From: Flavobacteriales bacterium
Lineage (GTDB): Bacteria > Bacteroidota > Bacteroidia > JANQJC01
Assembly: GCA_028281825.1 (NCBI GenBank)
Contig: JANQJC010000100.1
Coordinates: 73,854-137,853, forward strand
Direction of reading: 5' to 3'
DNA: 64,000 nucleotides
This document shows, piece after piece, positions 27,125 through 48,694 of the stretch (the first letter of the stretch is position 1; every line of letters starts with the position of its first letter). Both the position numbers and the translations under genes were made by a program. Under the pieces are notes generated by a model. That model was not told the DNA's origin. It made no database searches and saw nothing but the letters and a program-made list of their open reading frames with translations.

Positions 27125-27934
27125 ATGATTGACAGGAGAAAGTGGTTTGTAATAGTATTTGGAACTGATACCAAAGAGGGTAAGCGTTTTGATATTATCC
27201 TGCTTTGGATGATTTTGTTTAGCGCCCTGGCTGTAATTCTTGAGAGTGTGCCCGAAATTGGAGGGGGCTATCATACCTTTTTTGTAGTATTGGAATGGGT
27301 TTTTACTGTATTTTTCTCATTTGAATATATTTTGAGAATATATATAAGCCCAAGGCCCCGCAGGTATATTTTCAGCATTTGGGGGCTTATAGACTTACTA
27401 TCCATTCTGCCAACATATCTTAGTTTAATATTTGCAGGGTATCATTATTTATTGATTGTCAGAGTATTCAGGCTTTTAAGGGTTTTCCGTGTACTGAAAT
27501 TGGTGCGGTTTAACAGGGAGGCACAAGGCCTTATACAAGCACTGAGGGCTAGTTCGTATAAAATTGGACTTTTTTTACTCACTATGTTAGCTATAGTGAC
27601 ACTAATGGGAACCGTAATGTATGTTGTTGAAGGAGAAGAAGAAGGTTTTAATAGTATCCCCCAGAGTATCTATTGGTCAATAGTAACAGTAACTACTGTT
27701 GGTTATGGAGATATGGTACCCCATACTGTTTTAGGTAAGTTTTTATCATCATTAGCAATGATTATTGGTTATGCTATTATAGCCGTACCTACAGGTATAG
27801 TTACAGTAGAAATGTCCAAATCGAGTAACAACACAAAAGAGTGCCCCCATTGCCAATATAGAAATTCGGTCAATGCGAAATATTGTAGTCATTGCGGCCA
27901 ATCATTAAATGAGAAAGAAGAATCAGTTGAGTGA
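27125..27934 (+). CDS. Voltage-gated-type K+ channel with C-terminal zinc ribbon
   Basis: This is a 269-residue ion channel with six membrane segments. The S4 voltage sensor has basic residues at every third position (R113, R116, R119, R122, K125, R128). The pore filter TVGYGD (191-196) is the K+ signature. After S6 (ending near 228) comes a short cytoplasmic tail with C240-x2-C243...C254-x2-C257 (CPHC and CSHC), a treble-clef/zinc-ribbon pattern unusual for bacterial Kv channels. The ATG at 27125 starts right before S1. The gene is monocistronic, and its end overlaps the convergent SGNH gene by 12 bp. Confidence 0.9.
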   Translation: MIDRRKWFVIVFGTDTKEGKRFDIILLWMILFSALAVILESVPEIGGGYHTFFVVLEWVFTVFFSFEYILRIYISPRPRRYIFSIWGLIDLLSILPTYLSLIFAGYHYLLIVRVFRLLRVFRVLKLVRFNREAQGLIQALRASSYKIGLFLLTMLAIVTLMGTVMYVVEGEEEGFNSIPQSIYWSIVTVTTVGYGDMVPHTVLGKFLSSLAMIIGYAIIAVPTGIVTVEMSKSSNNTKECPHCQYRNSVNAKYCSHCGQSLNEKEESVE

Positions 27935-29134
27935 GTGAGGGTTATAAACATCTTGCCATTTCTGGTAAATAGTGGCACCAATATGTTCATAGCCTTTTGC
28001 ACGCATGTGTTCATCATAATTCCAATAAAGATGGTCATTAACGGACTCTCTGAGTCTCACATTATCTGTTAAATCAAAAAATGTCATATTGTATTTGGCA
28101 CATTCTTCACCAAGGGCTTTTTGATGCTTTAGGTAATTGTTTGTGGTTAGGTCTATGCTATCATTACATAATTGAAGACACATTTGTTTGTCAAACTGAT
28201 AGTAATATCTTGTGACGACATTTCTGCTGGGCACATAAGCTATAATAGGTTCAACTCCATATCTTTTAGAGAAGTGGTTAAAAAATGGTATTATATCACC
28301 CAAAAGAGGTTCTTGCCCAAGTCTTGTTTTTTCTGTGTAAAGGTTGTTTATTCTAAATGGCGCGAGAGTGGAATTCAACATATGTTTCAATATATCTGCT
28401 CTTACCTGGTTGGCTACTTTACTGCTATCTATCTTCCATGCACCAAAGGCATTATTCTGATTAGGGATATATGAAACTGTGTTTGTATTCCATCTAAACT
28501 TGATAGGGCTGTTGAGTTTTATTTGTTCAATAAGTTCTAATAAACGCGGTCTCAACAGATTGAAGTATTGTGGGGTTAAAGTTCTCCCTGGCATTGTAGG
28601 AGGGCTTTGGGCGATGTCATTCGCATATATGCAAATGATTACATAGTCAGGCCTAAAGATTGGTATAAATTCAACCATTAGCCTCATATATGAAGTAGGT
28701 CCAGAACCTACCATCCCCCCATTCCATACTTCATAGTTTTTATCATTCAAAGCCCGTTCAAACGCTTTTGGAATTGTTTCATCTTGCCCAGCCATAATCC
28801 CTTCCACAAAGCTGTCGCCAATAAAGAGTATTCTTTTTTTTCCAACCTTTCTTTTTACTTTCCATTCCTTATCACGAAACCCATACATGTTCATTTTATG
28901 AATAAAGCGATGGTTGGTGTCTAATAGGCTTTCCCAATACCAAGTTTGGTTGCGCAGGTATTTGTATTGATGTGGATATTTTGAAAGCATCATATAATTG
29001 ACGCGATCAAAATTGCTCAATTCTGGAATAGGGAAACAAAAGCGAAGAGCGATTTCCTGAAAGGCCAAAACAGCAATGATGTATAGTACAGTTTTGGCAA
29101 GAATCTTTGATTTTCTGAGAGAAACGAACCCCAT
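27923..29134 (-). CDS. Membrane-anchored SGNH hydrolase (second of a tandem pair)
   Basis: This paralogue of the gene at 29170-30354 has one N-terminal membrane anchor (ILAKTVLYIIAVLAFQEIAL), then a shared segment CFPIPELSNFDRVNYM, then an SGNH/GDSL-type hydrolase. Block I is LFIGDSFVEGIM with the catalytic Ser, the GGMVGSG loop is block II, YANDIAQ is block III, and NYDEHMRAKGYEHIG is the Asp-His block V. The likely activity is removal or transfer of acyl (for example O-acetyl) groups on extracytoplasmic glycan, by family analogy. The frame is open to 29200, but ATG 29134 aligns with its paralogue and avoids overlap. It is the last gene of the leftward 35.9-27.9 kb operon. Confidence 0.82.
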   Translation of the reverse strand: MGFVSLRKSKILAKTVLYIIAVLAFQEIALRFCFPIPELSNFDRVNYMMLSKYPHQYKYLRNQTWYWESLLDTNHRFIHKMNMYGFRDKEWKVKRKVGKKRILFIGDSFVEGIMAGQDETIPKAFERALNDKNYEVWNGGMVGSGPTSYMRLMVEFIPIFRPDYVIICIYANDIAQSPPTMPGRTLTPQYFNLLRPRLLELIEQIKLNSPIKFRWNTNTVSYIPNQNNAFGAWKIDSSKVANQVRADILKHMLNSTLAPFRINNLYTEKTRLGQEPLLGDIIPFFNHFSKRYGVEPIIAYVPSRNVVTRYYYQFDKQMCLQLCNDSIDLTTNNYLKHQKALGEECAKYNMTFFDLTDNVRLRESVNDHLYWNYDEHMRAKGYEHIGATIYQKWQDVYNPHSLN

Positions 29135-29169
29135 GAAGGTTTCAAAGGTATCAAAATCTAATGCTTCGC

Positions 29170-30354
29170 TTAATCTGAAAGGACTTGAGTAGCCCGCCAT
29201 CTCTGATAAATGGCTTTGCCAAGGTACTCATACCCTTTAGCTCTCATGTGTTCGTCATAATTCCAGTACAAGTGGTCATTAATATCCTCTCTTAGTTTAA
29301 CGTCTTCTGTGAGGTCTATTAATGGTACATTATACTTAGCACATTCGAGCGCTAAGTCTTTTCTATGAAGTTGGTACTTTTCCTGGGTTAAATCTAAGGT
29401 GTCATTGCAATAAACCAGACACATGTCCTTGTCGTATTGATAGTAGTGTTTTGTGACAATACTCCTGCTCGGTATGTAAACAACATAGGGTTGTACATTG
29501 AATTTTTTGCAGAAATACTCGAAGAAAGGGAGTATTTCTCCAAGGTTAGGAGACTGGCCAAGTACTATACTCTCATAGTGAAGGTTGTTAACCCTAAATG
29601 GAGATATTTTTCCTTGTTTCATCTGCTCGGCTAACCTCGGCTTCACATGTTGACGTAAAAAGGCCTCTTTAGAATACCAGGGACTGGCTTCATGTTCATT
29701 AGAAGGTATGTAGGTTTTGCTTCCTAAACTCCACCTAAACTTAACAGGGCTGCCAAGCCTTATCTGATTTATTAGTTCCAGTAGTCGTGGCCTTTTTTTA
29801 TTGTAGTATTCAGGTGTGATATATGTTTCAGGTATTATGGGGTCGCGTTGAGATAGGTCGTTACCACTGATACATAGGAACAGGTAATCTGGTTTGAAAA
29901 TGGCGGTAGCGTCAGTTGATAACATGAGGTATGAGTCAATGCCAACACCCATCATTCCGCCATTCCAAACTTCATAGCTATCATCATTAAGTTCATTTTC
30001 AAATACTTTGGGAATTGATGACCCTTGTTCTGCCATTATGCCTTCAATAAAGCTATCCCCAACAAATAGTATTCTTTTCTTTCCGGGCTTTTTCTCAATC
30101 ATCCATTCTTTGTCGCGAAATCCATATCGATTCATTTTGTGAATGAATTGATGATTGGTATCAGGCTGACTTTCCCATGTCCAGGTTTGGTTTCTGAGGT
30201 AAACGTATTGATTCTTAAGTTTAGCCAATTTCATATAGTTCACCCGGTCAAAATTGCTCAACTCAGGAAGCGGAAAACAAAATCGTAGCATCAATTCCTG
30301 GAAAACAAGAATCGCAATAAGGTATAGCAGTATTTTAAAGATGGTCTTAAACAT
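29170..30354 (-). CDS. Membrane-anchored SGNH hydrolase (first of a tandem pair)
   Basis: This 394-residue protein begins MFKTIFKILLYLIAILVFQE, a signal anchor, so the catalytic domain faces the periplasm. The motifs are LFVGDSFIEGIM (Ser), NGGMMGVG, ISGNDLSQ (GxND) and NYDEHMRAKGYEYLG (D-x-H). The two tandem paralogues share many segments across their whole length, including CF-PELSNFDRVNYM and DHLYWNYDEHMRAKGYE, a clear local duplication with divergence in the middle. It lies 47 bases downstream of the membrane-TPR gene at 30402. Confidence 0.85.
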   Translation of the reverse strand: MFKTIFKILLYLIAILVFQELMLRFCFPLPELSNFDRVNYMKLAKLKNQYVYLRNQTWTWESQPDTNHQFIHKMNRYGFRDKEWMIEKKPGKKRILFVGDSFIEGIMAEQGSSIPKVFENELNDDSYEVWNGGMMGVGIDSYLMLSTDATAIFKPDYLFLCISGNDLSQRDPIIPETYITPEYYNKKRPRLLELINQIRLGSPVKFRWSLGSKTYIPSNEHEASPWYSKEAFLRQHVKPRLAEQMKQGKISPFRVNNLHYESIVLGQSPNLGEILPFFEYFCKKFNVQPYVVYIPSRSIVTKHYYQYDKDMCLVYCNDTLDLTQEKYQLHRKDLALECAKYNVPLIDLTEDVKLREDINDHLYWNYDEHMRAKGYEYLGKAIYQRWRATQVLSD

Positions 30355-30401
30355 CGAAGCCAGTGAGTTTCAGACCCGCAAAGGTATCAATTGTGTACTT
30401 A

Positions 30402-32357
30402 CTAAGGCAGTAATTGAACTTTGAGTTCTTCAACATTTTCATTGGCTTGTAAACGTTCCAATATTTTTTTCACCAAATTGATGTCACTTGAATTGGATAT
30501 CAACAGGTAGTTTTCACAATATTTTTCAGCTTCGATAAAACTGTCGTTTTCAAGTGCGCATTTAATCAACAAGCGTAGTACGTCTGGGTTTTCCTTCAGG
30601 CCAAATGTATTGAGGAGTTGAAGCGCATTTTGGTGAGCTGTTTTTGAATTACCCATTTCTAAATTAAGCTGTGCCAAATAATACCAGTTGTCATAGTAAT
30701 CTGGAGAATAGTATAACGCTTTTTGAAAGTCAGTTTTAGCTTCGTCTAGTTGGTTTAGGACTTTCCATTTTACAATTGCATCATCGGTAAGTAATTCGGC
30801 ATACTTTCTATCAACTCCCACTTGTGCCATTGGTTTCAACTTTTGTAAAAGTTTCTCTTTTCTCTTGAGATACAAATCCACGTCAGCAGGTATCATGTTT
30901 AACGCATTAAGCATAAGCGAGGCTGAGTGTGCGTAATAGGTTTTATAAACATGGACTCCAACACTTTCTTGTCGATAGGATAATGAAAGGGTTTTGGCAT
31001 TTACTGCAAAAAGTGGAATTGCTAATATCCCTAATGAGCTAATACTAGTTAGTAAAGACGTTGGTAGCGTTTCATGTTGAATTTGCTTTACAATCACTAA
31101 CGTAAGAACCATGAATAGAGGAGTAGGAAATACAAACAAGTCCCAATCCATTGGCATTGACATAAGCGGATTGAACATGAAAAGAAAGGAGATAAGCAAT
31201 ATTAGCGTAACTAAGAGAATACTTAGAGTTGGAGACATGGATAGCTTTTTTCTATATAGTGTCAACGCAGACACAAAGATGAATAACAGACCTGGGGACC
31301 AATGAAGAATGGCATTAAGGAAATCAAAAATGTGATTCCAACTTTGTAAGTTGTAATTATCCAGGGGTGCCTCAGGTGCGATGATGGGTAGAAAGAGCCT
31401 CTCAATATCTGGAACGTCTCCATCTAAGAATCTCGGGTCGTTATAGTCTTTCAATATAAAGAAATACAAAACGAGTCCTACCAAGCAGGCTGGTATATAT
31501 AGCCATAGAACCAAACCTTTAAAGGTCAGGAGCTTTTTTATGGTTTTATTGTGTTGCCATCCCAAGGTTAAAAGTGTCAAAAAGAAAGAGGGAGCAATTA
31601 AATAAGATAAGGCATGAAACCGCATACCCAATAGTAAGAGAATAGCCATAGGGAGCATAAAAATTTGTTTTTTGGTCTCAATGGCTCTCACCAAAAAAAC
31701 AAAGTATCCCAGCAGAATAAGGTAAAGTGGGGCATACGTCTCTATATGCCCGAAAAAGATGAGGAAAAAGGGAGATGCAATTCCTGCCAGAGATAAAGCC
31801 AATTGCCATATTGGAATGGAAATATGGGCAACTACCAACCTTAACCATACCAAAACAAAAAGGCTTCCGCAGATAGCGTCAACCCATAAAAAGACTTTCT
31901 CATAGCTGCAATTGAAAGCATAAGCTGCAAGCGTGAAAAGATGAAATACGCCCCATCTGCCATTACCAGGCTCAACTTTAAAGTTCAACAAATCACCCCA
32001 AAACCCCTCAGGCAGGCTTTCTACCATTTGATTCAAGTAAGGTGTAAATGTTCTCGCATTACCATAGCTATCGCTAGCTATAGGAAAAGAATAACAAAAT
32101 AAACAGAATAGGGCACTTATTGCTAAGCTAACGACCCAATGGTTTAATGAAAACCGGCTTGGGTAATTGAGCTTTGGTTTTATGATAAAGCCCAGAAGAA
32201 TTAAGCCAAGTGCAATACCGAATAATAGAAAGTTATGTGGTGATGGTAAAAATGCGAGATGATGGGTTGCCCACCAATCATTGGGTGCAATCCATCCTAA
32301 AACAAAAGGAAGCACGAAGGCTAAGGCCAGCATCGATATTTTGTAGTGGGCTTTCAA
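30402..32357 (-). CDS. GT-C-like polytopic membrane protein with C-terminal helical repeats (family X, copy 2)
   Basis: This 651-residue protein has about 12 membrane segments followed by ~180 soluble residues with TPR-like helices. It shares a set of motifs with 32354-34336 and 56604-58580: NDWWATHHLAFLPSP at the N-terminus, SDSYGN (D96) in the first large loop, FFGHIETYAP (203-210), ILKDYNDPRFLDGDV, then NHIFDFLNAILHWSP, and NPLMSMPMDWDLF. The overall layout (polytopic, acidic residues in outer loops, TPR tail) is like GT-C glycosyltransferases, but I cannot match it to a named family. It starts at TTG 32357, giving a TTGA overlap with the upstream gene; ATG 32333 is an alternative. Confidence 0.8.
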   Translation of the reverse strand: MKAHYKISMLALAFVLPFVLGWIAPNDWWATHHLAFLPSPHNFLLFGIALGLILLGFIIKPKLNYPSRFSLNHWVVSLAISALFCLFCYSFPIASDSYGNARTFTPYLNQMVESLPEGFWGDLLNFKVEPGNGRWGVFHLFTLAAYAFNCSYEKVFLWVDAICGSLFVLVWLRLVVAHISIPIWQLALSLAGIASPFFLIFFGHIETYAPLYLILLGYFVFLVRAIETKKQIFMLPMAILLLLGMRFHALSYLIAPSFFLTLLTLGWQHNKTIKKLLTFKGLVLWLYIPACLVGLVLYFFILKDYNDPRFLDGDVPDIERLFLPIIAPEAPLDNYNLQSWNHIFDFLNAILHWSPGLLFIFVSALTLYRKKLSMSPTLSILLVTLILLISFLFMFNPLMSMPMDWDLFVFPTPLFMVLTLVIVKQIQHETLPTSLLTSISSLGILAIPLFAVNAKTLSLSYRQESVGVHVYKTYYAHSASLMLNALNMIPADVDLYLKRKEKLLQKLKPMAQVGVDRKYAELLTDDAIVKWKVLNQLDEAKTDFQKALYYSPDYYDNWYYLAQLNLEMGNSKTAHQNALQLLNTFGLKENPDVLRLLIKCALENDSFIEAEKYCENYLLISNSSDINLVKKILERLQANENVEELKVQLLP

Positions 32358-34336
32358 TTTTGAGCATTATTTGGGTTAGAAAACAGGTTAACCAATTGCT
32401 CCACGTTATCTTTATTGACCAACCTTTGGTGAACTTCTACTATCGTGCTGTCATCGGCTGCTAACTCGAGGTAACTGCTTGAGTGAGCTTCGGCTTGGTC
32501 ATAAAGTTCTGCGGCTAAAGCACAATGTATTAGCATTTCTAAAGATTTTTCTTCGCTAAGGTGTTTAAGTTCTGAAAGTTGTAGAGCGTTTTCATATGCA
32601 TTTTTGAATTTACCCAACTGAAAGTTGGTTTGCATTAAGTATAGCGTGATGGATTTATGTCCTGGAAAATATTGAGAGGCTTCAAGAAGGTAATTGTTGG
32701 CAGTTCTTATATCCTTATTAATGTTTATATGCCTCAGGGCATTATCATAAAGCATTTGTGCATAATGCAAATCTTTACCAACTAAGGCATAAGGCCTTAG
32801 TTGTGCGATAACAGCTTCATTTCTTTTAATAGAATTAAGAGGCGAACTATCCAGGTTGACTGCATGCCTTAAATACCTGTCTGCCCATATATGATAGGTT
32901 TTGAATATTCTAATTGAAAGACTTTCAAGGCGTTGGGAATAGGGATAACGAAACGCGTTAGTAATAAAGAATGAGGAGCTTAAAAGAGCCATTGCAATGG
33001 CTATTGGAAATAGTCTAAACGCAGGCACCTTTTTGTCTTCAACTTCCCTAACTACCAATGCCGCGAGTATGAGCAATAGTGGGGTTGGTATCACAAATAA
33101 ATCCCAGTCAATTGGCATGGACAGTAAAGGGTTAACGGCAAAAAAGAAGCCAGTATAAAGTACTAATGCAAGAATAACCATCAATATGGAAGGCTTCTCC
33201 CAATTGACTTTATTTTTGTGCCCTATCACTATTCCTATAATGACGATAAGAGCTACTGGCGACCATAAAAGAATGGCATTAAAAAAGTCAAAAATGTGAT
33301 TAAAGCTTTGAAGGTTGTATCTATCTAGAGGTGGGGCAGGAGATACAATGGGCAAGAATATTCGTTCAAAATCATGAGCGCCTTCAAGGGTTCTGGGGTC
33401 ATTATATTCACCAAGAATAAAGAAGTATAGAATCAGTCCTAACGCAAATATGGGAGCTAGGATGTAAACTGTAATTCCTTTAAGGCTAAATATCTTTTCG
33501 GTAAATTTTGAAGTAGCTTTAGTTTGAGCCAAAAAGACAATCAACCAGATAGGTATTAGTAATAATACAGTTTGGTGTATTTTCAACCCTATGAAGGTAA
33601 GTGGGATTAATAAGTATAGTATCCACTTTCTTCTTGTTTCTATTGCAGTAATCAGTAGTATCATCCAAGCCTCAAGTATCAAGAAAGTAGGTGCATACAT
33701 CTCAACATGACCAAAGAAAATCTGTAGGGCGGGGGCAGTGAGTCCAGCAATGGCCAGTATGGTTTTCCATAAAGTGTTTTGAATATTTCGGTGCACAAAA
33801 AGCAACCAGAAGAAAGCAAATAGGGAGCCGCAGAGAATGCCAATGGCAACAAATACCTGGTAATAGTTTATTTGAAAGGTGTAAGAAATCAGGTTTACCA
33901 AGGCTGACATGTTTAATCGTCCTGCGCTTGGGTTTATGTCAAAAGAAAAGAGGGGATTCAGGGAAACATCGCTTATTGATGATATGACCACACCAAGCAT
34001 CCCATCATACTCAAACGAATCTCCGTAATGATCTTCAAAAATCGGAAAGAGGTAAAAGGCAAATCCCATTAATATGGTGATTAATGGGATTATTATAAAG
34101 GCGGATAGCTTTTTTGTACCAACAATTTTTTTTAAGTATTTCTCCCATACATTGGAAAAGGAAGATAGAACAAGAAATGCACCAAATGTTAATAAACTAT
34201 ATTTGAATGGAGTTGGAAAGAAAGCCAAAAAGTGAGTTCCCCACCAATTGTCAGGATTAAATGTACCTATTAAATAAAAACTGAAGAATATCAATCCAAC
34301 AATTGAAAACAGGTATTTTGACTGTAATAACTTCAT
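32354..34336 (-). CDS. GT-C-like polytopic membrane protein with C-terminal helical repeats (family X, copy 1)
   Basis: This is a family X protein of 660 residues from ATG 34336; the start is set by alignment of MKLLQSKYLF with the paralogues' MKAHYKISML and MKVLRNTSLL, and it clears the 3' end of the GT39 gene. The frame is open to 34366. The motifs are NPDNWWGTHFLAFFPTP, EDHYGDSFEY, FFGHVEMYAPTF, ILGEYNDPRTLEG, then NHIFDFFNAILLWSP, and NPLLSMPIDWDLF. The soluble tail carries helical repeats (DYLLEASQYFPGHKSITLYL-like spacing). Position between a GT39 enzyme and a second family X copy in one operon supports a role in glycan transfer, which is inference. Confidence 0.8.
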   Translation of the reverse strand: MKLLQSKYLFSIVGLIFFSFYLIGTFNPDNWWGTHFLAFFPTPFKYSLLTFGAFLVLSSFSNVWEKYLKKIVGTKKLSAFIIIPLITILMGFAFYLFPIFEDHYGDSFEYDGMLGVVISSISDVSLNPLFSFDINPSAGRLNMSALVNLISYTFQINYYQVFVAIGILCGSLFAFFWLLFVHRNIQNTLWKTILAIAGLTAPALQIFFGHVEMYAPTFLILEAWMILLITAIETRRKWILYLLIPLTFIGLKIHQTVLLLIPIWLIVFLAQTKATSKFTEKIFSLKGITVYILAPIFALGLILYFFILGEYNDPRTLEGAHDFERIFLPIVSPAPPLDRYNLQSFNHIFDFFNAILLWSPVALIVIIGIVIGHKNKVNWEKPSILMVILALVLYTGFFFAVNPLLSMPIDWDLFVIPTPLLLILAALVVREVEDKKVPAFRLFPIAIAMALLSSSFFITNAFRYPYSQRLESLSIRIFKTYHIWADRYLRHAVNLDSSPLNSIKRNEAVIAQLRPYALVGKDLHYAQMLYDNALRHININKDIRTANNYLLEASQYFPGHKSITLYLMQTNFQLGKFKNAYENALQLSELKHLSEEKSLEMLIHCALAAELYDQAEAHSSSYLELAADDSTIVEVHQRLVNKDNVEQLVNLFSNPNNAQN

Positions 34337-34343
34337 TTTTTGC

Positions 34344-35948
34344 TTAATCCAGGCGTTGCCATACAAAGATGTTAAAATCGCCTTGAAGTTCTTTATTTCC
34401 TAGGTCAGCTCCCCATGTATACTCAGTTGGTCGGTTTAAATAAATATCAGCGGTACCTATTAGTTTATATTTCTGCGTTATATCATCATACCACCTAAAC
34501 AACTCTTGTTCAGCTGGATCTACTTTACTAACCCATGTTAGTGGGTGGTTGACTGCTACAAAAAACCTGGGCATTGAAGCTTCAACATCTCGTATAAAAG
34601 CCTGTTGCCTCTGATTTTGCTCAGGTGTCCCGTCAACAAGGTAAGGGCCAAAAAGGTGTGTGGTTGGCGCATGCAACCCAGAGTAAAAGTAGAGTTGCAT
34701 TTCGCCTCCATAAACTATCATTTGGTCACCTTCGTTGGCTAGTTCTTTTATTTGTGCCGCAATTAGTTTTGACTCTATAAAAGGATTGGAACCATAAACT
34801 TCTTTCATTATATTCTTATAGTCTGGATGAAAGTAGATGGAACGTTCGTTAGCTAGATGAAGTCCCATTAGCAGCACTAACACAATAGTGATTATAGAAG
34901 AGCTGGTGGATGAGTTAAATTTTCGGTTGGCGAGAACTAAAATCTCATTAAAGAAGAAGCCTATTAAAAGCGAGAAAGCAGGAAATAGGAACAAGAAATA
35001 GTGGCCATGAAAAGTAAGGCGGGGCAATATTGACAGGAACGAGAAAAAAGTAAAAATTCCAATTAAAACCTTGGTAACCTTATTTTTAGAGGGCATAAAA
35101 GAGAATACGCCAAGGATAGCAAGTATCCACCATATCCAATAACCCTGTAATATGTTGGGCATACTGGCTTTAAGTAGAATCCATCCTTGAGAAAGTGGAA
35201 CATCTTGTAAGTGGGCTGGGTATTGGAATACCCAGTAGAAGAATTCTTTACCAAGGCCATTTGCTGTTAAATATGTTACTAAAAGTAGTGTAGGAAAAAG
35301 GGTCAGGATGCCAAAAACAAAAGCCTGCTTGATAGTAAAAGCCCAAGATTTTTTGTCCACCCACTTGAGGTAGTAAATAAGGTATAAGCCGGCCGCCACA
35401 ATAAAGAAAGCACCATTTTGCTTTACAAAGAACGATAAGCCGAATGCTATAGCACTCAAGTAAACCAGCTTGGGCAACTTATCTTGAGTTGCTTTAATGA
35501 GCAGGTAAAGCGCCAAACATAGCCAGAATACTACCAAATGTTCAGATAGTACACTTAATCCACCTACGTGTGGGCCTAATGATAGTATAGCAAAACTGGC
35601 AGATGAGAATAGAGCAGCTATACTATTCCAAAGCTTTTTAGAAGCTAGAAACAGAAACACGATAGTAACCGTATTAATTAGTAAAAACCCAGTATGCAGG
35701 CCTATGTCAGTTTTGCCAAAAATGGCCATGATAAAGGCGTAAGTATAGAAAAGACCTGGGGGCTTAGGGTCGTAAAATGCTTCATATGGAAGTTGGCCTT
35801 CCAAAAGAAGGGAAGCAAAATAGGCGTATAACCCTTCATCGCGCTCAAAGGGAAAATCTAGAAAATTGAGGCGAATGATTACGACAATTATTAATAGCAC
35901 AGCCAAACCTGTGTATAATACTACCTTCTCGATGTTGGCCTTTTGCAT
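34344..35948 (-). CDS. GT39-like (PMT_2) membrane glycosyltransferase
   Basis: This GT-C glycosyltransferase has about 11 membrane segments. The first outer loop reads FPFERDEGLYAYFASLLLEG and continues PYEAFYDPKPPGLFYTY, the D-E motif and KPP signature of the ArnT/PMT_2 group that uses polyprenyl-phosphate sugar donors. A soluble C-terminal domain of ~150 residues follows. I start at ATG 35948 (MQKANIEKVVLY). The frame is open to 36026, which would overlap the divergent TMTC-like gene. It heads the five-gene leftward operon ending at 27923. Confidence 0.85.
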   Translation of the reverse strand: MQKANIEKVVLYTGLAVLLIIVVIIRLNFLDFPFERDEGLYAYFASLLLEGQLPYEAFYDPKPPGLFYTYAFIMAIFGKTDIGLHTGFLLINTVTIVFLFLASKKLWNSIAALFSSASFAILSLGPHVGGLSVLSEHLVVFWLCLALYLLIKATQDKLPKLVYLSAIAFGLSFFVKQNGAFFIVAAGLYLIYYLKWVDKKSWAFTIKQAFVFGILTLFPTLLLVTYLTANGLGKEFFYWVFQYPAHLQDVPLSQGWILLKASMPNILQGYWIWWILAILGVFSFMPSKNKVTKVLIGIFTFFSFLSILPRLTFHGHYFLFLFPAFSLLIGFFFNEILVLANRKFNSSTSSSIITIVLVLLMGLHLANERSIYFHPDYKNIMKEVYGSNPFIESKLIAAQIKELANEGDQMIVYGGEMQLYFYSGLHAPTTHLFGPYLVDGTPEQNQRQQAFIRDVEASMPRFFVAVNHPLTWVSKVDPAEQELFRWYDDITQKYKLIGTADIYLNRPTEYTWGADLGNKELQGDFNIFVWQRLD

Positions 35949-36019
35949 GGCTAAAAATAGCGGATTTAGAGTGATAGGAAAAATATTCAATAGTTTTACG
36001 AACCAGTCTCCTATTATCC

Positions 36020-39779: not shown

Positions 39780-39827
39780 GGCTCCATGGATTAGGCTATT
39801 TAAGCCCGTCACAGTATATTTACCGAC

Positions 39828-40718: not shown

Positions 40719-40720
40719 AG

Positions 40721-43700
40721 ATGGATTTTAAGCGCTGGAATAGGATAACGGGGTGGGTGGTGTTTGCCATTACTTTTACTGTCTATCTTCTCACTGCGCA
40801 GAGAACTATCAGTTTTTGGGATAGCCCAGAGTTTATTTCGGCAGCATATAAGCTGCAAGTTTCTCACCCGCCTGGTGCGCCATTATATGCCATGCTTGCC
40901 AGAATATTTATGATGGTATTTCCAAAATCGATGGTGGCTTTTGCGGGGAGCTTGTTCTCGGTGGTATGCGCTGCATTTACTACCTTATTACTACATTTTA
41001 GCATTACGTGTATTGGACAGAGATTATTGGGAAAAAAGGAATTGACTACCAGTGAGAGTATTGCAATTTTAGCTAGTGGTCTTGTCGGCGGGTTATCTTT
41101 GGTATTTGCGCATAGCTATTGGGCGGCAGCTACTGAAGCTGAAGTATATACACTTTCATCAGTGCTCATGGCTGCGGCTTTTTGGTTGGCTTTGAAATGG
41201 GAAGTGGAAAGTGACTATGTAAATGCAGTAAGATGGTTGTTCTTGATAGCATTTATTCTTGGTTTGTCTGTGGGTGTACATATCATGAATTTTGCGGTTG
41301 TATTTCCAATAGCGATGATATTAGGCCTCAAGAAATACGGCTTTAACTGGAAAGGGGTATCTATTGCTTTTTTGTCAGGTTTGGCACTTTTCTTCTTGCT
41401 GAAAAGCATATTAGTAAATGGCTTTCTGGCGTTGGCTTCAAAACTTGAGTTAATGATGGTGAACAGTTTTGGGTTGCCATTCAATAGTGGCTTAATAGCA
41501 TCTATTCTAATTCTGGTTGGGCTTTTAGCGTTTGGGCTTTACTACACCAGGCAAAGAAGAAAGATAATGGCACACCACATTATATTGGCTATTGCCTTAT
41601 TTATGGTAGGGTGGTCATCATACGGTATGGCTTTGGTACGTTCCAAGCCCGACTTGGCTATTTCATCAGCGGCTGGTGACCCATTTAGGTTGAATGGCTA
41701 TTTGCAGGCCGACCAGTTTGATTTTAGCAATCGTGAGTTACTAAAAGGCCAGGTATACAATTCACCATTAGACCCTAAGAAACCCTTTTTGGATGGGGAT
41801 GAAGTATATGCCGCAAGCTATGAGCAAGGCAAGTACATAAGGACAAATGATGGAAAATATATGGTGGCTAATCGTGATAGCCGCTTTGATATGTTTTTTC
41901 CACGGGTATACAATGCAAGACCTATTAATGCGGATGGTTACAAACTTTGGGGACAGATAGAGGGCAGACCCCTGAGACATACTTTGAATGGTAACACTCA
42001 AACTATCCATAAGCCTACATTTGGAGAGAACCTGTATTATTTTTTCAAGTTTCAACTAGTGCACCTGAATTACAGATACCTGATGTGGAATTTTGCAGGC
42101 TCTCAAAACAGGGATTTTGATAGTGGAAATCCAATCAATGGCAATTGGATGAGTGGAATAGGGTTTGTTGATTTTCCAAGGGTGGGGAATACTGACATGA
42201 TTTCACCCAGAAATATGAATGTTAAGGATAAGAATAATTTTTACTTATTGCCCTTCTTGCTTGGTCTATTTGGGTTAGTGTTTCTTTATATAAAAGACAG
42301 AAAACTTGGAACTGTTACGCTGACTTTCTTTCTGGCTTTTGGTGTGGCCATTACCATTTTTATCAACCAGATGCCCATTCACTTGGCCATCAGAGATAGA
42401 GACTATATTTTCTTAGCGGCCTACTTTATGTTTTGCTTGTGGATAGGCTTAGGTGTATTGGGCTTGTTTAAATTGATACCTAAAATACAAGAGAATAACA
42501 TGAAGGCTATTCTGGTAGCTAGCCTGGCTCTCTTGGCTGTGCCAGTACAAATGGGTGCTAAAGGATGGGATGACCATGATAGGTCTGATGATGACTTTAT
42601 TTACAAATTGGGCAAAGCCTATTTAGATGGTTGCCCTGAAAATGCACTACTAATAACAGAAGGTGATAACGCTACTTTTCCATTATGGTATTTGCAAGAA
42701 GTAGAAGGTTATCGAACTGATGTGCGTGTGATTAATTATGAGTTGCTGAACTTGGACTCATATATTGAGAAACTAAAGAGGCAAATCAACGCTTCATTAC
42801 CTGTGAAGATGAGTTTGCCTGAAATCAGTTATGCAAAAGGGGTGGATAAGCTCTTACCACTGATAGATAAGGTAGAAGAAGGGGTTCATGCAGATATTGG
42901 GCAAATAGTAGAATACGCATCTTCTGATAAGAAGACTTTATGGAATGGTAGAAATATCAACTTTATTCCCACCACTCGGTTCAGCATGAGGGCCGATACC
43001 AACCTGTTGAGAGCAAGAGGCGTAGCACCGGAAAAGTACGGTTGTAAATTTGTGCCTGAGATACAGTGGGAATACGCTAAGGATTTCTATTCCATTGGAG
43101 ATTTGGTACTATTAGATATTCTTAATTCTAACCAATGGGAGCGACCAGTTTGCTTTGCCAATATTGATAATAATATACACCAAATGGGGTTAAGATGGTA
43201 TTTTTTGAAACGAGGAATGGTGAATGAATTGTTGCCTATGGCTCCAGGGGATGACAAAACAAGAGACCTTATGTTTGATATTGAAAACATGGCCAATGAG
43301 GTGATGAGCGACACTACTTTTGCTAATTTCAGTGATGTATCAAAGTATTACCCCATTGAAAGCAGGAGTATTGCCCGAAATATACTTAGGCATAACTATT
43401 TCTTCTTGGCGGATGCCTATCTGGAAGTGAGAGACTCTGCAGCTGTGGGGCAAGTACTCGACCAATGTCTGAAAATGATGCCAGATACAACTGTGGAGTT
43501 CAGAAAATATATGTTTGACATTGGGAAAACCTACTATAAAATCAATGAGCGGGAAAAGGCCAGAACGGTAATCAATAAATTGGTGGATAACCTGTTTATT
43601 GAAACGCATCATTTTTTATCATTTACACCTGCTAACGTATGGATAACAAGAAAGCATATAGAGGGTAATATGTCTATTCTTGAAGTGTTAGTGAGAGAAT

Positions 43701-43795
43701 TGGAAACTCGCGACAAAGAGTTGTCTGTTCCTGTAAAATCAAAGTATGAAATGCTTGAACGGGAAAAGCAGGCATGGATAAGCCAGCACTTTTAG
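40721..43795 (+). CDS. DUF2723 / GT117 family protein (TMEM260-like O-glycosyltransferase)
   Basis: This 1024-residue protein has about 12 membrane segments (to ~600) and then a ~400-residue extracytoplasmic or cytosol-facing domain with helical repeats at the end. The N-terminal RTISFWDSPEFISAAYKLQV (D34, E37) and HPPGAPLYAMLARIFMMVFP are the defining motifs of DUF2723, the bacterial relatives of animal TMEM260, an O-mannosyltransferase. The second half contains NALLITEGDNATFPLWYLQE and RGVAPEKYGCKF, also conserved in the family. It is the last gene of the 36.0-43.8 kb operon and ends 4 bp inside the convergent GT2 gene. Confidence 0.92.
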   Translation: MDFKRWNRITGWVVFAITFTVYLLTAQRTISFWDSPEFISAAYKLQVSHPPGAPLYAMLARIFMMVFPKSMVAFAGSLFSVVCAAFTTLLLHFSITCIGQRLLGKKELTTSESIAILASGLVGGLSLVFAHSYWAAATEAEVYTLSSVLMAAAFWLALKWEVESDYVNAVRWLFLIAFILGLSVGVHIMNFAVVFPIAMILGLKKYGFNWKGVSIAFLSGLALFFLLKSILVNGFLALASKLELMMVNSFGLPFNSGLIASILILVGLLAFGLYYTRQRRKIMAHHIILAIALFMVGWSSYGMALVRSKPDLAISSAAGDPFRLNGYLQADQFDFSNRELLKGQVYNSPLDPKKPFLDGDEVYAASYEQGKYIRTNDGKYMVANRDSRFDMFFPRVYNARPINADGYKLWGQIEGRPLRHTLNGNTQTIHKPTFGENLYYFFKFQLVHLNYRYLMWNFAGSQNRDFDSGNPINGNWMSGIGFVDFPRVGNTDMISPRNMNVKDKNNFYLLPFLLGLFGLVFLYIKDRKLGTVTLTFFLAFGVAITIFINQMPIHLAIRDRDYIFLAAYFMFCLWIGLGVLGLFKLIPKIQENNMKAILVASLALLAVPVQMGAKGWDDHDRSDDDFIYKLGKAYLDGCPENALLITEGDNATFPLWYLQEVEGYRTDVRVINYELLNLDSYIEKLKRQINASLPVKMSLPEISYAKGVDKLLPLIDKVEEGVHADIGQIVEYASSDKKTLWNGRNINFIPTTRFSMRADTNLLRARGVAPEKYGCKFVPEIQWEYAKDFYSIGDLVLLDILNSNQWERPVCFANIDNNIHQMGLRWYFLKRGMVNELLPMAPGDDKTRDLMFDIENMANEVMSDTTFANFSDVSKYYPIESRSIARNILRHNYFFLADAYLEVRDSAAVGQVLDQCLKMMPDTTVEFRKYMFDIGKTYYKINEREKARTVINKLVDNLFIETHHFLSFTPANVWITRKHIEGNMSILEVLVRELETRDKELSVPVKSKYEMLEREKQAWISQHF

Positions 43796-44856
43796 TTAGG
43801 CTTCCCTTTCAGTTTATCAAAGTTTTTATTCCCCAACATAAAGTAGTTGACGATGAGACTTGTTTGGTAAACTCCTTTCAAGTCTTTCCAACTTTTCTTA
43901 TTAGGAATGTTCTTTCTTTTTTTCATCCACTTTCCTATTCGAAACCAGAACGAAAGATGCCCCCTGATGATGGCCAGTGAATGCCCTGGGCCTTCCATAT
44001 ATAATATATGAACGACAGCCAATGCATCCAGAATGGAGCGAATAAACAGCGTTGGTATAAGTGAGCCTATTGGTAGGTTCTTAGCCATCATGGAAATGTT
44101 ATTCCTGCTATTGAGGTATAGTTTGAAAGGGTTGTTGTAACTCAATACCCCACCACCCATATGGTATATGTGAGATTTAGGGCATGCCATTATTTTGTAT
44201 CCGTGTAATTGCATTCTCCAGGCAAGGTCTATCTCTTCCTGATGGGCAAAGAAGTCTAAGTCCAGTCCACCAGATTTGATATATGCTTCTCTTTTGACTG
44301 CTAAGCAACATCCTCCCGCCCAAAAGACTTCAATGGTATCATTGTATTGCCCTTTGTCCTCTTCCAATTGGTCAAACACCCTGCCACGGCAAAATGGAAA
44401 GCCCAAATGGTCTATAAACCCTCCTGATGCCCCGGCGTACTCAAAGTGCCCTCTTTTGTCATAAGAGAGTACTTTTGGCTGAACAGCAGCTATACTGTTA
44501 TCTGATTCAAAAAGGTCTATAATTGGTTGTAACCAGTTTTCGGTAACTTCAACATCACAACTTAAAAGGATAGAATATTTTGTCTCAATGAGTTTGGTGG
44601 CTTTGTCCATTCCACCAGCAAAACCGTAGTTCTCTTCAAACTGAATTAACTCCAGTTGTGGATAGTTTTCTTTGATAAATTGAATGGTATCATCAGAAGA
44701 ATCGTTATCCACAATAAAGAGTTGAGTTTTACTATCCAACTGAGTGAGCTCCAGTACTTTTGGCAGAAGCTTTTCGGTAAGTTTTTTGCAGTTGTAGGTC
44801 AGTAGTATTATAGCTACTTGCAATTCCTCAGAGCCGTATTTTTTGTTGTTTTCCAA
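43792..44856 (-). CDS. Glycosyltransferase family 2 protein
   Basis: This 354-residue GT-A enzyme has VAIILLTYNCKKLTEKLLPK at the N-terminus, VDNDSSDDT, SCDVEVTENWLQP (the metal/UDP-binding D-x-D-like site) and FAHQEEIDLAWRMQLHGYKI (the ED acceptor-activating motif). It resembles the rhamnosyltransferase-like GT2s found in polysaccharide clusters. The C-terminal ~90 residues are partly hydrophobic and may associate with the membrane. Its ATG directly abuts the stop of the upstream TMTC-like gene (no gap), so it is translated from the same leftward message. Confidence 0.92.
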   Translation of the reverse strand: MENNKKYGSEELQVAIILLTYNCKKLTEKLLPKVLELTQLDSKTQLFIVDNDSSDDTIQFIKENYPQLELIQFEENYGFAGGMDKATKLIETKYSILLSCDVEVTENWLQPIIDLFESDNSIAAVQPKVLSYDKRGHFEYAGASGGFIDHLGFPFCRGRVFDQLEEDKGQYNDTIEVFWAGGCCLAVKREAYIKSGGLDLDFFAHQEEIDLAWRMQLHGYKIMACPKSHIYHMGGGVLSYNNPFKLYLNSRNNISMMAKNLPIGSLIPTLFIRSILDALAVVHILYMEGPGHSLAIIRGHLSFWFRIGKWMKKRKNIPNKKSWKDLKGVYQTSLIVNYFMLGNKNFDKLKGKPN

Positions 44857-46725
44857 CTAGTTCAACTGTAGCTGTTGTAAGTATTGTATTGGAACATTGA
44901 AACCAAGTTGTTGAGCTTTCTGAGCATCAATTTTAGCCTCATTGGTCAACTGTAGGTAAAAGTACACTTTTGAGCGTCGATAATACACTTCACCGTAATT
45001 TGGATTTAAGGCTAAAGCCCTGTTATAATCATCTAAGGCTTCTTTAACTTTTCCACTTTTGAAAAAGACAAGTCCCCGACTATTAAAAAGGCCTGCATTA
45101 TTTGGTTCTTTGCTCATCAACAAGTTATAATCTTGCAGCGCATCATCCAATCTGCCCAATTTCTCTGATAGTACTGCATGAAATATGCGTGGCATGGGGT
45201 TGTCAGGCTGTTTATCAAGTACAATGTTGATATCAGCAAATGCTTTATCATAGTTGCCCAAAGCATCATTAGCTATTGCTCGATTAAGTAAAGCCTGCCA
45301 TTGCGTAACTGGATCGTTTTTGTGGGCCCTGTCAAAATAAGGAATTGATTCTTCAAATTGTTGGTTTTGAAGTAGTATTAAACCAGCATTGTTTTGGCAA
45401 CTGGCAAACTTTGGGTTTTTCTCTGTACAGGTAATGTAATCTCTCAGCGCTTTTTTCTTATCACCTTTTTCAGACCAATAGTTGGCACGCATCCCGTAAG
45501 CCATATAGCTTTCAGGAACATCTTCTACTGTGGCGTTCCAGAGTGTGAGACTATCTTTCCAATCATAACATCGGTCAAAGGAAATAAGAACACAACTACC
45601 GATAATGCATAGCGTGAGGATGCCCATCACTACCTTACTTGCTTTAAACCATTTGTCTAGGGCTATTCCAAGAGGGAAAAGTAATCCAATGTAGGGGATG
45701 TAGGTAAACCGGTCGTAAATAATACCAGAATTGACCTTAATGAAATGTAATGTGAGCCCTAGCGTAATGAGGAAGAAAAAGTACCCGAAAAAGAGGCTTT
45801 TATTCTTTTTAGCCCGGAACAATATAACCAGTGAAAGAACCAGAACTGCAAAGAAGGACAGGTAAACCATTAAGGGGTATCCTTCATCACCTTGCCTTGG
45901 AAAGGGATAATGGGCAGAAACAGGGATGGGATAAAAGAACTTTTGGAGATAAAGCCAAGTGGCATAAGAAGATAGAACAGTTTTGTCCCATAAACTGTGA
46001 TTGCCAGCAGAAGGTATCATTTGGTCGAGTGCGAGGATACCAAAAAAGAAAGCTATGACTAGAAAGGGAATTTTATTGATGAAAGCATGGTTGCTAAGCT
46101 TTTCTTTTTGATGCCAATCAAACAAAAGTAGTGCAACGGGTAAGCAAGCTGCCTGTGGTTTAGAAAGCATAGACAGTATGAAGAGTAGTACAGATATCCA
46201 ATAGACGGGAGTTTTATACCAGTGGTTATCTTCATTTTTGCCAATATATGATTGGTAGCTTAGGATTGATGAAAGGAAGAAAAATGCAAAGAGGGTGTCC
46301 TTTCTTTCTGTTATCCAGGCGACAGACTCCACATGCATAGGGTGGATGCCAAATAGCAATGCAACGAAAAAAGCAATACGAATATTGACTCCCAACTTCT
46401 TAGTAATGAAGAATACTAGTAAGATATTCAGTAGGTGTAGAATGAGATTATCAAGGTGGTAGAGAAAAGGCTGGTATTGAACGAGTGAATATTCCAAAGC
46501 AAAAGACACCAGCGTGAGCGGGGTGTAGGTATCCATGGTTTTATTTTCAGGCTTTAAGAGCTGTAGTAAATTGTCAAGTGAAGCATCACGAATGTGCTCA
46601 TTTTCAAGTACGTAAGCCTTATCATCCCAATTGGTCCAACCGTTTTGCAATACAGGGGACAGCGTTAAAAAGCTTATCAACAGCAAAATGACTATTGCCA
46701 AGAGGGCCTGTGTTATCTTATTCAT
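44857..46725 (-). CDS. TMTC-like O-mannosyltransferase-family protein (copy 3)
   Basis: From ATG 46725 this is 622 residues (the frame is open to 46746); the start removes a Lys-rich extension and gives an 8-bp overlap with the upstream gene. NGWTNWDDKAYVLENEHIRD carries the DD motif, HPMHVESVAWITERKDTLFA the conserved loop, and GIIYDRFTYIPYIGLLFPLG a later helix. The C-terminal TPRs follow (YDKAFADINIVLDKQPDN). It is more diverged from copies 1-2 than those are from each other, with ITERKD in place of SSRKD, so it belongs to a second subgroup with copy 4. Confidence 0.86.
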   Translation of the reverse strand: MNKITQALLAIVILLLISFLTLSPVLQNGWTNWDDKAYVLENEHIRDASLDNLLQLLKPENKTMDTYTPLTLVSFALEYSLVQYQPFLYHLDNLILHLLNILLVFFITKKLGVNIRIAFFVALLFGIHPMHVESVAWITERKDTLFAFFFLSSILSYQSYIGKNEDNHWYKTPVYWISVLLFILSMLSKPQAACLPVALLLFDWHQKEKLSNHAFINKIPFLVIAFFFGILALDQMIPSAGNHSLWDKTVLSSYATWLYLQKFFYPIPVSAHYPFPRQGDEGYPLMVYLSFFAVLVLSLVILFRAKKNKSLFFGYFFFLITLGLTLHFIKVNSGIIYDRFTYIPYIGLLFPLGIALDKWFKASKVVMGILTLCIIGSCVLISFDRCYDWKDSLTLWNATVEDVPESYMAYGMRANYWSEKGDKKKALRDYITCTEKNPKFASCQNNAGLILLQNQQFEESIPYFDRAHKNDPVTQWQALLNRAIANDALGNYDKAFADINIVLDKQPDNPMPRIFHAVLSEKLGRLDDALQDYNLLMSKEPNNAGLFNSRGLVFFKSGKVKEALDDYNRALALNPNYGEVYYRRSKVYFYLQLTNEAKIDAQKAQQLGFNVPIQYLQQLQLN

Positions 46726-48589
46726 CTTGGCTTTGGTTGATTTCATTCAAGTAACTCTGAGGCACTTTAAAGCCCAGTTCAATGGCTTTTTTCACATCTT
46801 CAATGGCTTTTTCTTTCTCTTCAAGGAACCAGTAGAGTCTTGACCTACGATAATAAGGTTCTGGGTAATCGGGATTAAAGTTGATAGCCGTAGTGTAATC
46901 GTTCTCAGCTGCTTCTATATCGCCTTTTTTAAATAACACTAAACCCCTGTTTGAATATAACCCTGCATTATAAGGCTGGCGGATGATTAGGATGCTATAA
47001 TCCTTAATAGCGTCATCAAGTAGGTTTAGTTTTTCAAATACAACTGCTCTAAACAGAAAGCTAATGGCGGTATCCGGATCAAGTTCTACCAGCCTGTTCA
47101 TGTCACGCAAAGCAGCAGAGTCGTTACCAAGAAATGAGAGCAACATGCCCCTGTTCATTAGTGCCGGATAGTAATTGCTATCAATTTCCAATGAGCGGTT
47201 AAAGGCCTCCATCGCTTCTGGGAATTTATTCAAGGTGCGTAACATCAGCCCTTCGCTATTGGGGCAGGCAGGGTTATCTAAAGAGCGCTCAGAGCATAAC
47301 TTGTAATCTCTTACGGATGCTTTTAGTTGACCTATTTTATTATAGAAAGAAGCTCGGTTGGCGTAGGCTACATGGTGGTCGGGATACTTTTCTGTAACAT
47401 CTGTCCAGAGACTTACGCTGGATTGCCAAACAGTACTTCTTGAATAGGCATATACAGAGAGAAAAACCAGATAAGAACAGAAGACGAGAATGGGTATCTT
47501 TTTTCCTTCTTCAAAGAGTTTTGTTTTTTCTACCAGGAAGTAGGCCAAAGCGAAAAATAATCCTAGATAGGCAAGGTAGGTGTATCGTTCGGCAATGATT
47601 GTCCTGCCGACAGGAATTATTTGAGAAACGGGGATAATGCAGACCAAGAATACACCCAAGCCAAACATCAACCACTTTTGCTTGTGATACCTGATGGTGG
47701 TGAAAACTAATAAGGATATTAGGACAAACGCTGAAGCATAGATATACCAGGGCCACCATCCATTGTTGATATCGGGAAAGGGATGAAAGGCTGAGAGTTT
47801 AAATGGAATCAGGGATTTAATAGTATAGGTGAGTATCCCGTAGCCCGCGATGAAAAATTTGTGCCTGCCACCTATTTGCTCAAAAGTGTTTGAGGCACCA
47901 CCTTCACTTTGTACGGTAATAGCCAGCAGTCCAAATATTAGGCTAATGAGAAAGAAAGGAGCCTTAGTAAATAGGCTTCTCCATGATAGCTCATTCCTGA
48001 AATAGTCTATAAGCACCAGAATAATGGGAAAAACAACAGACTGACCTTTAGATAGACCTGATAACACCAGAAACACCATAGCAAGGATGTAATATACCAG
48101 TTTAGTCTTGGTTGTGTAATACATATAGGAAACAAGCCCCAGCATCAGGTAGAAGACATAAAGAACGTCTTTACGCTCTGTAGCCCAGGCAACAGATTCA
48201 ACGTGCATTGGGTGGATACCAAAGAGTAGGGCTGTTATAAAAGCAATCTCCCAACGATGGGTGAGCAACTTCACAAACCAAAAAACCAATGCCACATTTA
48301 ATAAATGCAGAAGCAAGCTATGTAGGTGGTAGTATAAAGGGTTGAGTCCACCAATAGCGTCATCTATGGCGTGAGAGATAAGGCTGAGTGGGTGATAGTT
48401 TCCCTCAAATTCTCTTACTTTGAATATCTGAACAAAACTGTCCCATGATAGGTCTTTGATGTATGGGTTATTAATGATATAGGCTGGGTCGTCCCATTCA
48501 ACAAAATCAGCACTCAACACTGGGATAAAAACCACAAAGGTGATGGCCAGTGCTATCCATAAAGCAAGAGGTTTGAGTAGCTTAATCAA
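46718..48589 (-). CDS. TMTC-like O-mannosyltransferase-family protein (copy 4)
   Basis: This 623-residue protein starts at a TTG; no ATG fits before the first helix, and the -7 box at 48621-48628 leaves a leader of about 25 bases. ADFVEWDDPAYIINNPYIKD has the DD motif, HPMHVESVAWATERKDVLYV the conserved loop, and TIIAERYTYLAYLGLFFALA the later helix. Six TPR units run to the C-terminus (EAAENDYTTAINFNPDYPEP). It heads the leftward TMTC-TMTC-GT2 operon. Confidence 0.86.
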   Translation of the reverse strand: MIKLLKPLALWIALAITFVVFIPVLSADFVEWDDPAYIINNPYIKDLSWDSFVQIFKVREFEGNYHPLSLISHAIDDAIGGLNPLYYHLHSLLLHLLNVALVFWFVKLLTHRWEIAFITALLFGIHPMHVESVAWATERKDVLYVFYLMLGLVSYMYYTTKTKLVYYILAMVFLVLSGLSKGQSVVFPIILVLIDYFRNELSWRSLFTKAPFFLISLIFGLLAITVQSEGGASNTFEQIGGRHKFFIAGYGILTYTIKSLIPFKLSAFHPFPDINNGWWPWYIYASAFVLISLLVFTTIRYHKQKWLMFGLGVFLVCIIPVSQIIPVGRTIIAERYTYLAYLGLFFALAYFLVEKTKLFEEGKKIPILVFCSYLVFLSVYAYSRSTVWQSSVSLWTDVTEKYPDHHVAYANRASFYNKIGQLKASVRDYKLCSERSLDNPACPNSEGLMLRTLNKFPEAMEAFNRSLEIDSNYYPALMNRGMLLSFLGNDSAALRDMNRLVELDPDTAISFLFRAVVFEKLNLLDDAIKDYSILIIRQPYNAGLYSNRGLVLFKKGDIEAAENDYTTAINFNPDYPEPYYRRSRLYWFLEEKEKAIEDVKKAIELGFKVPQSYLNEINQSQDE

Positions 48590-48628: not shown

Positions 48629-48694
48629 GCTCAAACAAGAAAACTGAAAATGGGTTATAATCTATCCCAGTAAAATTGCGTAGTATTGAGAGCA

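Follow-up and report, generated by a model that had tools for sequence, protein, structure and literature searches.

The window analysed here, a 64,000-nucleotide stretch of Flavobacteriales bacterium contig JANQJC010000100.1, carries at about 27.9–61 kb a gene island with eight or nine membrane-bound sugar-transferring enzymes beside three surface fibres that combine YadA-head repeats with a Peptidase_S74 domain (S74 fibres; Table 1). Its first part consists of three abutting operons in which the genes overlap or lie 0–48 bases apart. The first (minus strand, 36026 down to 27923) contains a PMT_2 gene, two UNK genes and two SGNH hydrolase genes; the second (plus strand, 36020–43795) contains two TMTC-like genes, an RmlD-like gene and a TMEM260-like gene; the third (minus strand, 48589 down to 43792) contains two further TMTC-like genes and a GT2 gene. 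UNK is a working name for an unnamed, rare, apparently GT-C-like family of multi-transmembrane (multi-TM) proteins with C-terminal TPR. An earlier note, confined to 27923–48589, had listed six enzymes (four TMTC-like, one TMEM260-like and one GT39-like) with their RmlD-like and GT2 neighbours in three adjoining operons; all of these genes were recovered where it had placed them, and Pfam supports the TMEM260-like, PMT_2, RmlD, GT2 and TPR assignments. The note overlooked the two UNK genes, three SGNH genes, the three S74 fibre genes downstream, and a third UNK gene with its FAD oxidoreductase and the membrane protein MEM337. Genes were taken from a mechanical list of open reading frames, matched to Pfam and NCBIfam profiles, and motifs were read directly from the translations; several starts in the list are TTG, so the true starts may be further downstream.

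Table 1. Genes of the island, with strand and supporting matches.
Coordinates	Strand	Assignment	Evidence
27923..29200	-	SGNH/GDSL hydrolase (SGNHa), possible glycan O-acyl esterase/transferase	PF13472 36 bits
29170..30354	-	SGNH/GDSL hydrolase (SGNHa)	PF00657 24 bits, above cut-off; PF13472 32.6 bits, just below
30402..32357	-	UNK family: multi-TM, GT-C-like, C-terminal TPR	AlphaFold2 model; hhalign
32354..34366	-	UNK family, second copy, 35% identical	
34344..36026	-	PMT_2 (ArnT/PMT-type GT-C) glycosyltransferase	PF13231 57 bits (cut-off 26); RDEGLY, KPP
36020..37903	+	TMTC-like GT-C, C-terminal TPRs	Pfam TPRs; AlphaFold2 pLDDT 92.7, pTM 0.90
37896..39779	+	TMTC-like GT-C, tandem duplicate, 59% identical	
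39828..40718	+	RmlD-like sugar-nucleotide reductase	PF04321 190 bits; NCBIfam rmlD 183 bits, under cut-off 224
40721..43795	+	TMEM260-like (DUF2723) GT-C, fibre-linked paralog	PF11028 161.7 bits (cut-off 24.2)
43792..44856	-	GT2 glycosyltransferase	PF00535 63 bits; several GT2 models matched weakly
44857..46746	-	TMTC-like GT-C with TPRs, variant YDRFTY	
46718..48589	-	TMTC-like GT-C with TPRs	
48686..49744	+	SGNH/GDSL hydrolase (SGNHb)	PF13472 47 bits
49769..51778	-	YadA-head beta-roll and Peptidase_S74 surface fibre; proposed acceptor	PF05658, PF13884; island-type subfamily
51782..53749	-	YadA-head and S74 fibre	Pfam; island-type subfamily
53753..55765	-	YadA-head and S74 fibre	Pfam; island-type subfamily
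56604..58580	-	UNK family, third copy	UNK hidden Markov model 630 bits; A4 636 bits
58577..59941	-	FAD amine-oxidase-like protein, overlaps UNK	NF005560 473 bits
59948..60961	-	MEM337, membrane protein	no Pfam or NCBIfam match

The same kinds of gene recur together elsewhere. Comparison loci (L numbers) were first collected solely by TMTC similarity, and several are contigs of metagenome-assembled genomes (MAGs); the genome sets comprised 60 genomes of the class and 396 of the phylum Bacteroidota (372 of them near-complete), the relatives among them all being from outside the host's own family. Although the loci were picked for TMTC similarity alone, UNK, SGNH, S74, MEM337 and a DPM1-like GT2 keep reappearing in them. 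UNK, TMTC-like and S74 genes stand together in the window, in G053:C61 (L170 and L202), in G012:C11 (L171), and in L070 and L080. The order in G053:C61 is S74, S74, TMTC, UNK and TMTC, then MEM337, FAD oxidase and UNK; G012:C11 holds MEM337, UNK, TMTC and two S74 genes; L070 and L080 share S74, UNK and TMTC, to which L080 adds a DPM-like GT2 and MEM337. Other loci carry different combinations: S74, methyltransferase, TMEM260, DPM-like GT2, TMTC, PAP2-like and S74 in L054; DPM-like GT2, TMTC, SGNH, PAP2-like and UNK in L059 and L083; and, consecutively, SGNHb, SGNHa, PAP2-like and S74 in L222. The conserved unit is modular, an island rather than a fixed operon. The earlier note had proposed a survey for conserved co-location. 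Literal co-location of TMTC and TMEM260 was found at one other locus (L054) and, among the matches listed, in none of the 60 class relatives, and was rejected as the unit. A general TMTC–S74 linkage was likewise rejected, with three strong cases and one weak case in 80 loci, confined to the UNK- or TMEM260-bearing subset. The similar island of L080 lies on a MAG contig labelled Pseudomonadales (JANQLY010000003.1), which suggests horizontal transfer or a binning error.

Within the 60 class genomes, island-type S74 proteins (called at >300 bits) occur only in G000, G053 and G012, the next best match reaching 163 bits. The same three genomes are exactly those with a strong UNK match (at least 350 bits), and each time the fibre lies within 10 kb; G034, the fourth genome with UNK and a weaker match (169 bits), lacks island-type S74. 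The chance of an exact three-of-60 overlap is about 1/C(60,3) = 3e-5, physical linkage not counted. The S74 profile used (A7) contained G053 copies, so G053 is only partly independent, and G012 is independent. In a search from the fibre side through the 396 phylum genomes, besides the host only G141 scored above 300 bits, and there (G141:C15) the gene next to the fibre encodes a TMEM260 paralog; after it comes a methyltransferase gene whose product shares 55% identity with the L054 one. It would be very surprising, given these observations, if the region were just a variable stretch in which duplicated membrane genes have gathered, co-located without a shared function. Gene content does vary between loci, and both TMTC-like proteins (in 38 of the 60 class relatives, where one genome can hold as many as 19) and S74 domains (39 of 60) are common; the island-type S74 subfamily is not common, however, and the rare families co-occur exactly and are physically linked across families of the class, with independent confirmation in G141 and tight operons in the window.

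The four TMTC-like proteins all contain the motifs (F/W)(V/T)-x-WDD and HPMHVE-x-VAW and a TPR array after the multi-TM core, seen in Pfam matches and in the helix order of the AlphaFold2 model. The ERYTY helix, which the earlier note ascribed to all four, is present in three, the protein at 44857–46746 having YDRFTY. An alignment of 39 TMTC-like proteins shows no variation at D34, D35, P68, H127, P128, E132 and K183 and conservation of 90% or more at R140, D142 and R338; R338 is the Arg that precedes a late TM helix (AERV), and only Y-x-P of the SHKSYRP motif is conserved. In human TMTCs, the DD, D, K and R positions have been assigned to catalysis or ligand binding (PMC7801869), and the bacterial D34, D35, D142, K183 and R338 appear to correspond to them, as judged from alignments made without human sequences. 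All human TMTCs also have a DUF1736 loop (PMC7801869), for which (PF08409) the four window proteins give no match even at E<=1, and the glutamate of the KE pair is replaced by G/S/P after K183. Over-cut-off PF08409 matches were found in 19 of the 60 class relatives, all in another TMTC-like subfamily, in which the loop is of the SDYSFNQIP type versus HPYPF in the window type; KE is kept in most DUF1736-positive bacterial homologues. A Foldseek search of the PDB with the AlphaFold2 model was dominated by TPR proteins, and a PDB sequence search with the TM part found nothing. The name TMTC is thus partly earned, with DD, D, K and R kept and the DUF1736 loop and KE glutamate absent, and, judged by sequence, the four are best regarded as a sister subfamily of TMTC-like GT-C/TPR proteins. 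The second Bacteroidota subfamily (G029:C25, G006:C98, G005:C66 and others; L195–L200) carries a real DUF1736 loop and, by the DUF1736 test, is nearer to the animal TMTCs.

For the TMEM260-like protein, the assignment made in the earlier note was borne out. It contains FWDSPEFIS and aligns to solved TMEM260 (9rql) with E=2.7e-13, placing WDSPEF over GDSGEL and HPPGAPL over HPPGYPL, so that the DSxE and HPPG motifs are kept; this match supports the GT-C character claimed for the island proteins. In the structural comparison that the note had proposed, TPR repeats swamped the PDB searches with the two AlphaFold2 models (one TMTC-like, one UNK). Of the 396 Bacteroidota genomes, 394 carry PF11028, mostly in one or two copies; among the 372 near-complete ones the figure is 371. 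The host has four copies (the window, C133, C29 and C80), two of them canonical and outside the window. In trees, the S74-linked copies of the window, L054 and G141 cluster with support of 93/91 (100/98 in a smaller set), and together with the host's C80 copy they split from all canonical copies at 100/100; the fibre-linked paralogs are a clade of their own, apart from the canonical family. In the neighbourhoods of 20 TMEM260 genes, taken from the host's paralogs and from relatives, a nearby polysaccharide-deacetylase-like gene, in most cases the immediate neighbour, was seen in 10 and a kinase-like gene in 6, both identities being read from the sequences. No glycosylation operon surrounds any of the 20, and the neighbours of canonical copies do not point to glycan assembly.

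UNK proteins match no Pfam or NCBIfam family except a weak TPR. The copy at 30402–32357 gave an AlphaFold2 model with pLDDT 88 and pTM 0.87, and hhalign matched its TM part to TMEM260 (E=2.6e-5) and TMTC (1.5e-4), with part of the TM region aligned. Among the controls, unrelated multi-TM profiles scored at least 0.011, reversed profiles of other families at least 0.059 and the reversed UNK profile itself 0.0023. This profile similarity to GT-C families above controls suggests that UNK is GT-C-like. In a Foldseek search of the PDB, TPR matches dominated, with PglB (6gxc) at rank 16 (E=5.9e-3, TMq 0.27); a PDB sequence search with the TM part gave a single meaningless match. UNK is rare, being found in 9 of 396 phylum genomes at E<=1e-3, and besides the host only G225 has a strong match (219 bits). 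It would represent a new, previously undescribed TPR-bearing GT-C-like family. A literature search found no prior description and no paper tying S74 fibres to these membrane glycosyltransferases, and DUF2723 was not met in the papers searched.

A close homologue of the window PMT_2 protein adjoins a TMTC-like gene in L095. SGNHa homologues neighbour TMTC/UNK genes in L059 and L083 and an S74 gene in L222; SGNHb homologues lie between two TMTC-like genes in L052 and beside SGNHa and S74 in L222. The DPM-like GT2 adjoins TMTC in L054, L059, L080 and L083, the nearest solved structure of the L059 copy is Dol-P-Man synthase 5mlz, and the host has a 68%-identical copy at C118, outside the island. 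The FAD oxidase–UNK pair recurs in L202. MEM337 adjoins UNK islands in three other genomes (L080, L170/L202 and L171). A 640-residue protein with weak PAP2/vanadium-haloperoxidase similarity is encoded in L059 (7227–9158), L083 (7282–9195), L054 (12085–14001) and L222 (3395–5401); none was seen in the window. On the flanks of the island, a fourth SGNH hydrolase, fused with TPR-like repeats, is encoded at 61556–62929, and a secreted protein bearing the type IX secretion signal Por_Secre_tail at 24721–26925.

That the GT-C genes are recurrent neighbours of one kind of fibre suggests that their products sugar-coat the S74 fibre. On balance, we favour the view that the region is a modular glycosylation island dedicated to the adjoining, putatively secreted YadA-head/Peptidase_S74 fibre family. 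A DPM1-like synthase encoded elsewhere in the genome, and possibly also the island GT2, would load polyprenyl phosphate with a sugar. Periplasmic GT-C enzymes (TMTC-like, TMEM260-like, UNK and PMT_2), perhaps with some division of labour, would then move sugars to Ser/Thr residues of the repetitive beta-roll, and their C-terminal TPR domains would dock the fibre, as TPR tails have been proposed to bind the acceptor in animal TMTCs (PMC11292533). The RmlD-like protein and GT2 could supply a further sugar, and the SGNH enzymes could add or trim acyl groups.

Several observations weigh against a fibre-dedicated island. A second fibre gene of G141 (G141:C8) and a strong or fairly strong S74 gene in G118:C33 have no GT-C neighbour, L059 and L083 combine UNK, TMTC and SGNH with no S74 within the 12–15 kb examined, and across the 80 loci TMTC-like genes show no general tie to S74. 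Several comparison loci are MAG contigs, the L080 label may be a binning error, and the exact gene set of the window was found in no other genome searched, the relatives covered being all from other families. The absence of the DUF1736 loop also counts here. The motif D[ST][AILVMT] occurs 4, 3 and 4 times in the three fibres against 3.3, 3.5 and 3.3 expected, so that, if glycosylated, they would use other sites; the idea that the general D[ST] system modifies the fibre was rejected on this ground. In a small sample of host proteins, enrichment of the motif was 1.57 for exported-like and 1.39 for cytosolic-like proteins. Finally, a polysaccharide-modifying role is conceivable. Like ArnT or the O-antigen-modifying GtrS enzymes, the GT-C enzymes might have as their substrate a polysaccharide, lipid-linked or at the surface (LPS, capsule or exopolysaccharide), that the fibres bind or anchor. 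The PMT_2 family includes ArnT-type enzymes, polysaccharide loci typically contain RmlD, GT2 and SGNH genes, and ArnC is among the nearest solved structures of the DPM-like GT2. We regard this as unlikely, however, since no Wzx/Wzy, ligase or initiating phosphoglycosyl transferase is found among the annotated island genes, the TPR tails point to protein partners, and the known relative TMEM260 is a protein O-mannosyltransferase.

The proposal of a protein O-glycosylation locus, made in the earlier note, is plausible and is strengthened by the fibre linkage; the several acceptors that it envisaged fit less well, as the linkage suggests one fibre family. A general locus, in which the GT-C enzymes serve several unrelated acceptor classes and the fibres are one substrate or a chance neighbour, would account for the presence of several distinct GT-C families in one island and for TMTC-like genes that are common and multi-copy without S74, and it has a precedent in animal TMTC, TMEM260 and POMT enzymes (PMC11292533). 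It seems improbable nonetheless, because it is a single, specific S74 subfamily that recurs as partner, two canonical TMEM260 copies already exist elsewhere in the genome, and the window TMTC-like proteins lack DUF1736.

The core O-glycan of Bacteroidota begins with mannose, followed by rhamnose and glucuronic acid; the transferase that attaches it is undiscovered, and a 2025 review advises searching for O-mannosylation homologues to find it (PMC12871550). The near-universal canonical TMEM260 is a candidate for this initiating transferase, its universality alone being no proof. More tentatively, and with considerable doubt, canonical TMEM260 may start the O-mannose glycans of the phylum and may have been duplicated into a fibre-dedicated paralog which, with the TMTC-like subfamily and UNK, builds a separate S74-fibre glycan. 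On that reading, bacteria would have O-glycosylation with one enzyme per substrate fold, comparable to the division among TMTC, TMEM260 and POMT enzymes in animals. The findings yield a short gene list and a proposed acceptor. They also offer bacterial counterparts in which to study how O-mannosyltransferases with TPRs select substrates, which has been posed as a question for the animal enzymes (PMC11292533).

The island resembles several known systems in part. Like the general O-glycosylation of Bacteroidota (LFG-type, D[ST][AILVMT]), which is periplasmic and has a Man-Rha core (PMC12871550), it would act in the periplasm, and its RmlD-like gene adjoins the TMEM260-like gene; unlike that system, it shows no metG-wzx layout among its annotated genes and its fibres are not enriched in the motif. 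The PMT_2 protein is similar to PMT_2/ArnT-type enzymes in its PF13231 match, its DE motif (RDEGLY) and KPP. The earlier note called it GT39-like; PMT_2 is the only family matched, there is no match to the PF02366 core or the MIR domain of GT39 PMTs, and the protein is therefore not shown to belong to GT39. The window TMEM260-like protein shares with TMEM260 (GT117) a PF11028 match above cut-off, DSxE, HPPG and the 9rql alignment, but it is a divergent bacterial paralog in a fibre-linked clade, Pfam detects no TPR in its C-terminal part, and no IPT-domain acceptors are known for it. Animal TMTC1-4 (CAZy GT105) and the window type have in common a multi-TM GT-C core, DD after the first TM helix, Y-x-P in the first loop, HP-x-H-x-E, the D and K ligand residues, the Arg before the late helix and C-terminal TPRs, and differ in the loop (EL4), which is HPYPF-like in the window type and not DUF1736, and in the exchange of the KE glutamate for G/S/P.

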